This document shows, piece by piece, positions 9,480 through 12,869 of a stretch of 64,000 nt of DNA (within the stretch, counting starts at the first letter, position 1; each line of letters begins with the position of its first letter). The notes under the pieces were generated by a model. That model ran no database searches, was not told the DNA's origin, and saw only the letters and a program-made list of their open reading frames with translations. Source of the stretch: Cellvibrionaceae bacterium (lineage in GTDB: Bacteria; Pseudomonadota; Gammaproteobacteria; Pseudomonadales; Cellvibrionaceae); the NCBI GenBank assembly GCA_002707785.1, contig PANW01000042.1:6479-70478 (forward strand), given 5' to 3'. Made by a program: the position numbers and the translations under genes.

Positions 9480-9684
9480 CCTTAGACGCCGATCGATGGC
9501 GGCGACACTTTCCATAGTCGTACGCCTCAAGCCTCCTTTTAATCCCTTAAATCGCTGCTAATCTTAGTCATTAATGCGTGATAATCGATCTCGATGTCTC
9601 GAGATTTATCAGTTTAGCAAATGACGTTGAAATCACTATTCATCTAAATTATTTCGATTATAAGTCGCTGATTTACATGAGATC

Positions 9685-9713
9685 TTAACTCTGCAACGCC
9701 TTTCATGTAGAAT
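9685..9713 (+). promoter_or_regulatory. Predicted sigma70 promoter for acnB (TTAACT-N17-TAGAAT)
   Basis: -35 9685-9690 and -10 9708-9713, spacer 17; expected TSS about 9720, where the structured leader begins. Confidence 0.5.
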
Positions 9714-9719
9714 CCACGC

Positions 9720-10073
9720 CCGATTGCAGTAGGTTTTGTAAGGAAACTACACGGCAATCCTTGTCGATGTGGGCCATCGATAGACTCTCTGTCCTAACAA
9801 TAAGGGCCAGATGAGTCAGAATGACATATTTAGACAAATTAACCGTGCTTGAGCTGACTGTTTACACGTCAAAGAACGTGGCACAGGAGAAGTAACTCCA
9901 AGCTGCTAAGCGCCTTATGTGATTGAGGAAACCACTGTCTAACCACAGTGAATGCAGTTTGAGTTCCCTACAAAAACTGCAGCCAATTAATCTAACTATT
10001 AATAGCGGCTACCAACGCCGGTCATGGACACCTCTTAAGTGTCTATAACCCGTGTTTGCCCTGAGAGGTTTGA
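9720..10073 (+). ncRNA. Structured 5' leader of acnB (putative cis-regulatory RNA)
   Basis: Manually found stems: GATTGC/GCAATC (9722-9727/9754-9759) enclosing GTAG-g-TTT/AAACTAC; TCGATG/CATCGA (9764-9769/9775-9780); GACTCTCTG/CAGA-t-GAGTC (9783-9791/9808-9817); CACG/CGTG (9865-9868/9877-9880) inside GTGC/GCAC (9845-9848/9881-9884); GGAG/CTCC (9886-9889/9896-9899); CACTG/CAGTG (9933-9937/9946-9950); TGCAGTTT/AAACTGCA (9953-9960/9974-9981); GACAC/GTGTC (10027-10031/10039-10043). Confidence 0.6.
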
Positions 10074-12869
10074 ATGAGCTTATATTCAGAATACATGGAT
10101 GAAATCGCAACCCGTGAAAAGGATTTGGGACTGCACCCAAAGCCGATCGACAGTGCCGAGCTGCTGTCCGAGATCATTGCCCAAATCAAAGATACCGGCA
10201 ATGCTAACCGCGAAGACTCTCTGAAGTTCTTTATCTACAACACTCTGCCAGGCACAACCCCTGCTGCTGGCGTCAAAGCTCAGTTCTTGAAAGATATCGT
10301 ATTGGGTGACGAAGTCGTTGCAGAAATCTCTGCTGAGTCCGCTTTAGAGCAGCTATCTCACATGAAAGGCGGTCCGTCTGTTAAAGCCCTACTGGACGTC
10401 GCCCTATCAGATCACGCTCAAGCCAAAGCGGCCGGCGAAGTGTTGAAAACTCAGGTCTTTTTGTACGAAGCCGACACCACTCGTTTAGACGAGGCCTACA
10501 AAGCCGGCAACGCAATCGCTACAGACATTCTGGAAAGCTACGCAAAAGCTGAGTTTTTCACCAAACTGCCTGAAATCGACGAAAAAATCGACGTTGTAAC
10601 CTATATTGCCGCTGAAGGTGATATCTCCACTGACTTGCTGTCACCCGGTAATCAGGCTCACTCTCGTTCAGATCGTGAGCTGCACGGCCAGTGCATGATT
10701 ACCCCTGAAGCTCAGCAAGAAATCGTTGCTCTGGGTAAAAAGCACCCGAACGCCAAAGTGATGCTGATCGCTGAAAAAGGCACCATGGGTGTTGGCTCTT
10801 CTCGTATGTCCGGTGTAAACAACGTAGCACTGTGGGCCGGTAAGAAGACCTCTCCTTACATCCCGTTCGTAAACAACGCGCCTGTTGTTGCCGGTACTAA
10901 TGGCATCGCCCCAATCTTTTTGACTACTGTCGGCGTAACCGGCGGCATTGGTCTGGATTTGAAAAACTGGGTTAAGAAAACCGACGCCGAAGGTAACGTG
11001 ATTACTGACGCTAACGGTGATGCAGTATTGGAAGAGGCCTACTCTGTAGCAACCGGCACGGTTCTGACCATCGACACTAAAGCCAAAAAACTGTACAACG
11101 GCGACAAAGAGTTGGTTGACGTATCTGACGCCTTCACGCCTCAGAAAGTTGAATTTATGAAAGCGGGTGGCTCTTACGCCCTGACTTTCGGTAAGAAGCT
11201 GCAAACGTTTGCTGCTGAAGCACTGGGCATCGAAGCGCCAGCCGTATTTGCTCCGTCTAAAGAGATCTCTATCGAGGGCCAGGGCCTGACTGCTGTTGAG
11301 AAAATTTTCAACCGCAATGCTGTTGGTGTTACTTCTAAGACCCCACTGCACACCGGTTCCGACGTTCGCGTTAAAGTAAATATCGTCGGCTCTCAAGACA
11401 CCACCGGCCTGATGACCTCTCAGGAACTGGAGTCAATGGCGGCTACCGTTATTTCTCCAAGCGTTGATGGTGCTTACCAGTCAGGCTGTCACACGGCCTC
11501 CGTATGGGACAAGAAAGCCCAGGTAAACATCCCTCGCCTGATGAAGTTCATGAACGACTTTGGTGTAATCACCGCGCGCGATCCTAAAGGCGTCTACCAC
11601 GCTATGACCGACGTGATTCACAAAGTACTGAATGACATCACCATCGACGACCGCGCAATCATCATCGGCGGTGACTCTCACACCCGTATGTCCAAAGGTG
11701 TGGCTTTCGGTGCTGACTCAGGTACTGTTGCTATCGCTCTGGCGACTGGCGAATGCGCCATGCCGATCCCTGAGTCCGTAAAAGTGACTTTCAAAGGCAA
11801 CATGAAAGAGCACATGGACTTCCGTGACATCGTACACGCAACTCAAGCGCAGATGCTGAAGCAGTTCAACGGCGAAAACGTCTTCCAAGGTCGCGTTATC
11901 GAAGTGCAAATCGGTACTTTGCTGGCTGACCAAGCGTTTACCTTCACCGACTGGACTGCAGAAATGAAAGCGAAAGCTTCTATCTGTATTTCAACTGACG
12001 ATACTCTGGTCCAATCTCTGGAGCTGGCTAAGTCTCGCATCCAGATCATGATCGACAAGGGCATGGAAAATCGCGACAACATGTTGCAGGGTCTGATTGA
12101 TCTCGCCGACAAGCGTATCGCTGAAATCAAGTCTGGTGAAGAGCCTGCCTTGGCCCCAGACAGCAACGCTAACTACTACGCGGAAGTTGTTGTTGACCTC
12201 GATACTATCGAAGAGCCGATGATTGCCGACCCAGATGTCAACAACGATGACATCTCCAAGCGTTACACCCACGATGTGATTCGTCCAACCTCTTACTACA
12301 ACGGCCGTAAAGTTGACTTGGGCTTTGTTGGTTCTTGCATGGTTCACAAAGGCGACATGAAAATTATCGCTCAAATGCTGCGCAACATGGAATCACAGGG
12401 TAAAGAGATTAAGTTCAACGCCCCACTGGTTATCGCGCCACCGACCTACAACATTGTTGATGAACTCAAGGCTGAGGGCGATTGGGAGCTTCTAGAGAAG
12501 TACTCTGGCTTCGAATTTAACGATAGCAATCCGAAAGAAGCTGCTCGCACTAAGTACGAAAACATCATGTACTTGGAGCGCCCTGGATGTAACCTGTGCA
12601 TGGGTAACCAAGAAAAAGCAGAGCCAGGCGACACGGTTCTTGCAACTTCTACCCGTCTATTCCAAGGCCGCGTTGTTGAAGATAGTAGCGACAAGAAAGG
12701 TGAATCTCTTCTAGGCTCGACCCCAATGGTTGTTCTGTCTACCATCCTGGGTCGCTTCCCTACTCTGGAAGAATACAAAGAAGCCGTTGAGGGCATTAAC
12801 CTGACAGCCTTTGTTCCACCTTCAGAAGACCTCAGTGTCGAAGCGGTACCTGTGAAGATCGTCGGCTAG
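10074..12869 (+). CDS. acnB: Aconitate hydratase B
   Basis: 931 aa; LSPGNQAHSRSDRELHGQCMI, GGDSHTRMSKGVAFGADSG and YLERPGCNLCMGNQ are diagnostic for AcnB. Confidence 0.97.
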   Translation: MSLYSEYMDEIATREKDLGLHPKPIDSAELLSEIIAQIKDTGNANREDSLKFFIYNTLPGTTPAAGVKAQFLKDIVLGDEVVAEISAESALEQLSHMKGGPSVKALLDVALSDHAQAKAAGEVLKTQVFLYEADTTRLDEAYKAGNAIATDILESYAKAEFFTKLPEIDEKIDVVTYIAAEGDISTDLLSPGNQAHSRSDRELHGQCMITPEAQQEIVALGKKHPNAKVMLIAEKGTMGVGSSRMSGVNNVALWAGKKTSPYIPFVNNAPVVAGTNGIAPIFLTTVGVTGGIGLDLKNWVKKTDAEGNVITDANGDAVLEEAYSVATGTVLTIDTKAKKLYNGDKELVDVSDAFTPQKVEFMKAGGSYALTFGKKLQTFAAEALGIEAPAVFAPSKEISIEGQGLTAVEKIFNRNAVGVTSKTPLHTGSDVRVKVNIVGSQDTTGLMTSQELESMAATVISPSVDGAYQSGCHTASVWDKKAQVNIPRLMKFMNDFGVITARDPKGVYHAMTDVIHKVLNDITIDDRAIIIGGDSHTRMSKGVAFGADSGTVAIALATGECAMPIPESVKVTFKGNMKEHMDFRDIVHATQAQMLKQFNGENVFQGRVIEVQIGTLLADQAFTFTDWTAEMKAKASICISTDDTLVQSLELAKSRIQIMIDKGMENRDNMLQGLIDLADKRIAEIKSGEEPALAPDSNANYYAEVVVDLDTIEEPMIADPDVNNDDISKRYTHDVIRPTSYYNGRKVDLGFVGSCMVHKGDMKIIAQMLRNMESQGKEIKFNAPLVIAPPTYNIVDELKAEGDWELLEKYSGFEFNDSNPKEAARTKYENIMYLERPGCNLCMGNQEKAEPGDTVLATSTRLFQGRVVEDSSDKKGESLLGSTPMVVLSTILGRFPTLEEYKEAVEGINLTAFVPPSEDLSVEAVPVKIVG

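Follow-up and report, generated by a model that had tools for sequence, protein, structure and literature searches.

The acnB locus and its leader

The window, by which we mean the whole 64,000-nt stretch of Cellvibrionaceae DNA that was analysed, carries acnB at positions 10074-12869. NCBIfam identifies its product as bifunctional aconitate hydratase 2/2-methylisocitrate dehydratase of the 931-aa PRK09238 type. The gene lies on the forward strand, as do all features described below, and the 354-nt gap in front of it (9720-10073) forms its leader. The preliminary description took this gap for non-coding, and indeed no ORF of at least 60 aa was found over 9480-10073. For comparison, acnB orthologues were taken from neighbouring genomes and named GTDB contigs. 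Genus-level relatives, including Pseudomaricurvus (L041/L005) and Aestuariicella (L043/L007), share with the window both the promoter block and the leader's 5' half. A reading that starts with ATGAGTCAG near 9811 was dismissed as a conserved upstream ORF because it is not retained in relatives.

A consensus scan places a putative sigma70-type promoter of acnB, TTAACT-N17-TAGAAT, at 9685-9713, just as originally reported; in shuffles of a region of this size, 1.2 promoter-like matches are expected on average by chance. The block is common to relatives in the form cTTAACt...TGTAgAAT..CGCC (kept in the genus relatives L005-L008, L014, L074 and L087), and a -35/-10 pattern precedes 59 of the 81 copies of the element described below. 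From the position of the -10 box and the initial sequence conserved in relatives, transcription is predicted to start at 9720-9721 (CGCCCGATT). The Shine-Dalgarno (SD) sequence GAGAGG occupies 10063-10068 and is kept as GAGAGGTTTGA in relatives. Further upstream, in two relatives (L006 and L043), the conserved block includes a perfect dyad, CTTATAAT-G-ATTATAAG, some 25 nt ahead of the -35 box; a degenerate form of it (AAATTATTTCGATTATAAG) is seen at 9640-9676 of the window. This dyad looks like a transcription-factor site.

The leader is predicted to fold with an energy of -107.6 kcal/mol, compared with a shuffle mean of -87.1 (z -3.76; none of 100 shuffles was as good). All stems named in the preliminary description were located: GATTGC (9722-9727) with GCAATC (9754-9759) and the inner GTAG/CTAC, here called P1; TCGATG (9764-9769) with CATCGA (9775-9780), belonging to P2; GACTC-TCTG (9783-9791) with CAGA-t-GAGTC (9808-9817), that is, the GACTCTCTG/CAGATGAGTC stem or P3; and TGCAGTTT/AAACTGCA at about 9954-9982. 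No terminator was found in the window leader. Judged by comparison with relatives, the stems are unequal in standing. The original observation of a structured leader holds and reaches well beyond the window. P2 and P3 are kept across families; P1 is a variable accessory, and approximately 9849-10050, including the TGCAGTTT/AAACTGCA stem, is specific to the species.

Distribution of the conserved element

Six sequences served to build a first covariance model (R1), which covers P2, P3 and the linker behind them, and 37 matches a second one (R2). R1 matched 55 of 145 genomes of the family. R2 matched 35 of 394 genomes drawn from the order in two largely overlapping draws; by family, it was found in all 21 genomes of f25, 7 of 11 of f31, 2 of 6 of f16 and 1 of 3 of f2. 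Tallied from the search tables, these matches come from about 88 genomes, which belong to five families of one order, with about one match per genome. Wider draws, which include some genomes of the order and in which stricter filters lose weak matches, yielded one match among 369 genomes of the class and one among 150 of the phylum, each time the window's own genome.

Every one of the 81 copies examined stands directly upstream of acnB, with a median of 15 nt from the end of the match to the start codon. By pattern, the downstream gene is canonical in 65 copies and of PRK09238 type in 12; the remaining four, unresolved by pattern, appear on reading to be AcnB starts or run off the contig. With about one match per genome, no copy was seen at another citrate, iron or TCA gene. 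By these searches the element is shown to be tied to acnB alone in approximately 88 genomes of five families.

Other acnB leaders were seen on the way. A member of the genus missed by both models (L008, genome G005) shows, at the equivalent place upstream of acnB, two hairpins whose sequences are unrelated: GATCC.ATAC/GTAT.GGATC and CTCGCC/GGCGGG. In family f22, the acnB leader of L029 (G057) is a different one; it contains a long inverted repeat, GAAGCTGTTTTCAAAG...CTTTGAAAACAGCTTC, and may likewise be structured. The Thalassolituus/Oleibacter-type acnB genes of L066, L068, L093 and L110 are without the element and have a common leader end (GAGAG..GGTCGC before ATG), which may hold another motif.

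Structure and covariation

The consensus P2 reads AUCSAUG-NNGGY-CAUSGAU and is followed by AG. P3 then reads Y-CUC ... CAG-[A/C]GAUC-CUG ... GAG, and UAA, an A/C-rich linker and an AGAGG-type SD sequence complete the leader. In a typical copy, some 30 nt separate the end of P3 from the start codon, which puts it beside or inside the ribosome footprint.

The preliminary description proposed to look for compensatory substitutions in orthologue leaders, and they are plentiful. Among 79 distinct sequences, 14 of 17 pairs change on both sides. Standard pairs make up 93.8% of 1327 pair cells; shuffles reach 77.3%, and slid controls never exceed 47%. Sliding also lowers the covariation score from 0.451 to 0.073 or less. 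Since the alignment had been fitted to the model, it leans towards the proposed structure. P2 is paired in 97.6% of cells, and six of its seven pairs have changes on both sides. A tree-aware null was written for this analysis (it is not R-scape), in which substitutions are re-placed along a FastTree tree and an APC-corrected G statistic is computed. Under this null three pairs have E < 0.05, namely 6-31 in P2 (E=0.003) and 41-96 (E=0.008) and 46-85 (E=0.036) in P3, with no significant pair off the structure. A preliminary run with 51 sequences gave the identical three pairs. Compensatory changes also distinguish f25, where the lower P3 pair turns from U-A into C-G and the A-U pair of CAG/CUG into G-C.

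G-U cells outnumber A-C cells by 57 to 14. By this comparative evidence the element is therefore shown to act as RNA of the transcribed strand, under selection, rather than as a DNA operator. That the dyads are transcription-factor sites just downstream of the start is very improbable for further reasons. P2 is near-palindromic, and in f25, where P1 is missing, it begins about 10 nt past the predicted start, as an operator might. However, the arms change sequence and stay complementary (GC, CG and AU at pair 6-31), P3 is bulged and variable in length, and in other families, where a P1 hairpin of unrelated sequence usually intervenes, the element is reached only 22 to about 140 nt past the predicted start.

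Single copies have lower folding energies than their shuffles (mean z -2.3 over 81 copies). Such folding below random energy, together with the free variation of the extra hairpins (P1 and the insert), would suit a passive leader whose hairpins carry no signal and serve to shield the 5' end against RNases or to hold the SD sequence open. We think this quite unlikely, for several unpaired positions are nearly invariant: AG between the helices (97-98%), GAUC in the P3 loop (92-98%) and UA after P3, none of which a passive hairpin needs. GG in the P2 loop is conserved to 77-88%.

Comparison with known RNAs

As the preliminary description had suggested, Rfam was searched. With Rfam 15 at the gathering threshold, neither the window leader nor 24 element-bearing or related loci gave a match; the best sub-threshold matches were unrelated (E >= 0.58), and a permissive search of the window leader returned an implausible snoRNA match. 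A literature search for an acnB leader motif found nothing. With strong covariation in 79 sequences and every copy examined at acnB, the proposal of a candidate new cis-regulatory RNA is supported.

The iron-responsive element (IRE) is a hairpin bound by IRP1, with a CAGUGN apical hexaloop and a bulged C below a 5-bp upper stem. The acnB-leader element resembles it in being an RNA hairpin tied to aconitase biology, and the sequence at the apex of P3 reads CAG[A/C]GA. We nevertheless reject an IRE-like hairpin, because CAG in P3 is not part of a CAGUGN loop; it pairs with CUG, and the two covary (pairs 47-84, 48-83 and 49-82), A-U being replaced by G-C in 16 sequences. No bulged C of IRE type is conserved in the alignment.

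Also comparable are sucC (RF01759) and sucA-II (RF01758), candidate leaders of gamma-Proteobacteria/Pseudomonadales obtained by comparative genomics (PMC2864571). Like the acnB element, they are structured 5' leader candidates of single central-metabolism genes; they belong to other genes, and no acnB-leader copy tested matches Rfam. A pair of tandem hairpins near the ribosome-binding site (RBS) also recalls ANTAR-target RNAs. The loops of the latter are hexanucleotides with A1 and G4 (PMC8164766), whereas those of the element are typically of 5 nt (NNGGY and [A/C]GAUC), and this candidate was rejected. In E. coli, apo-AcnB binds a stem-loop in the 3'UTR of its own mRNA in iron-poor cells (PMC4150767). 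The likeness here lies in iron-linked post-transcriptional control of acnB through an RNA stem-loop; the differences are that the present element belongs to another order and lies on the 5' side, in typical copies close to the RBS.

A metabolite or metal riboswitch would need no protein at all: P2/P3 would be an aptamer for citrate, isocitrate, Fe2+ or similar, and would change access to the RBS. The conserved unpaired positions named above count in favour of an aptamer. We nonetheless hold a riboswitch to be rather unlikely, given the simple architecture, the absence of the element from any other citrate, iron or TCA gene, and the lack of both a terminator and a conserved, mutually exclusive SD pairing. 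Sequestration of the SD sequence by the P3 5' strand (CCUC) or by the apical loop (GAUCCU) is attractive in single folds and proved no better than in dinucleotide shuffles. The mean z of P3:SD duplex energies was -0.12, -0.30 and +0.08 in three groups, and no expression platform was found.

The copy in the window

The window begins its leader with P1 (9722-9759), a predicted accessory hairpin of GATTGC/GCAATC with the inner GTAG(TTT)/(AAA)CTAC. In relatives a different and still paired sequence takes its place, for example GTTAGCGG/CCGCTAGC in L005 and GTTAAGGG/CCCTTAAC in L043. The conserved element follows at 9761-9828 and consists of P2 (9763-9781, GTCGATG-TGGGC-CATCGAT), P3 (9783-9817, GACTC-TCTG-TCCT-[AACAATA]-AGGG-c-CAGA-t-GAGTC) and the start of a linker (9818-9848) that aligns with GAGTAAAcAACGACATATTAG..AACCGTGC of the relatives. 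The copy scores 69.9 bits with R1 and 52.7 bits with R2; since the window was in the training set, these scores are not independent, and its membership is supported by the homologous position in G003 and G004.

The element as we define it consists of P2, AG, P3 and GUA upstream of acnB. The window has all of these parts, reading GUC in place of GUA. More than 90% of the 79 sequences have the bases of the apical loop [A/C]GAUC, which is closed by CAG/CUG; the P3 of the window lacks this loop and has UCCU-AACAAUA-AGGG. What the window keeps is P1, P2, AG and a rebuilt P3. The copy is homologous by position and sequence to those of G003 and G004, though 9761-9828 is best called a diverged member of the conserved element. 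The copy in G030 (L026) is likewise without the GAUC loop. Another departure was noticed in L087, where three near-identical copies of CATTGAyAGCyTC follow one another in the leader (850-974), which looks like a duplication of the P2/P3 junction.

Between the element and the RBS lies a structured, species-specific insert of about 200 nt (9849-10050, edges approximate). All relatives aligned are without these approximately 200 nt between AACCGTGC, which ends at 9848 in the window, and the RBS. The stretch 9858-10052 folds well on its own (z -3.99). It is present in a single copy in its own genome and has no plasmid or phage match, and it was therefore rejected as a repeat or mobile element. By alignment, the 354-nt extent of the leader is largely due to this insert; the conserved unit is of about 69 nt, or about 110 nt with P1. 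Because the element precedes the insert and lacks the consensus loop, control in the window's species is probably altered.

Two types of acnB behind one leader

The window acnB scores 953 bits with NF006690 (cut-off 782) and 368.7 bits with TIGR00117, below the cut-off of 1287. By these profiles it is of PRK09238 type and not of the canonical TIGR00117 type. The element is kept ahead of both AcnB types, and the 931-aa type is about 35% identical to the canonical one. In Aestuariicella (L043), the element precedes the PRK09238 gene, and a canonical acnB follows directly behind without the element. The arrangement suggests a leader that was already there when the second gene type came to stand behind it. 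The tandem arrangement (L043, 5780-6100) is also seen in G004 and G005, with the canonical type about 280 nt after the leader-bearing PRK09238 type; the window's genome has the PRK09238-type acnB only.

Persistence of the element before both types bears on what might read it. It argues against strict recognition of one AcnB protein, though both could bind, and it suits a riboswitch, which need not recognise protein. It also weakens the idea that apo-aconitase B, having lost its Fe-S cluster, binds its own leader and thereby represses or protects its mRNA. The strict association with one gene speaks for such autogenous control, as does the precedent from iron-poor cells, where a stem-loop of its own mRNA is bound (PMC4150767). 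Yet the E. coli site is in the 3'UTR, P3 is not IRE-like, and two proteins of about 35% identity would need identical RNA specificity, which makes apo-AcnB binding a doubtful explanation in our view.

A possible mode of action

We propose that a conserved two-hairpin element in the 5' leader is a real structured RNA that acts post-transcriptionally on acnB. To this reading, drawn from comparison of genomes, we would assign a probability of roughly 70%. Post-transcriptional control of acnB is the best reading because the element occurs with acnB only, adjoins the RBS in typical copies and has an invariant loop; from this we infer that it is a cis-acting switch. Our best guess is that a trans-acting factor controls acnB translation or stability. 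Such a factor would read P2/P3 together with the GAUC loop. Because P3 ends so close to the start codon, its binding would then block or permit 30S binding, or shield the mRNA from RNase attack, and either effect would set the level of aconitase. Steric blocking does not apply directly to the window, where the insert leaves about 257 nt between P3 and the start codon.

Among candidate signals, which in the preliminary description were iron, citrate or the TCA cycle, iron or TCA status would be the likeliest. As reader, a protein is most likely, since the element belongs to one gene only and is simply built; it may be apo-AcnB itself. Taken singly, any one named reader is improbable. One may go further and imagine a new class of ligand- or protein-sensing RNA dedicated to aconitase B, which would report citrate/isocitrate or iron-sulfur status to translation and which was captured by a second acnB type displacing the native gene. 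We offer this as a tentative idea, and the odds are somewhat against it.

Aconitase connects the TCA cycle with iron and oxidative stress. The element described here would represent a new family of a known kind, the structured cis-regulatory leaders, missing from Rfam. It offers a defined target of about 69 nt for asking if bacteria sense citrate, iron or apo-aconitase via a 5' leader. It also suggests that the enzyme gene may be exchanged behind a leader that keeps its place.
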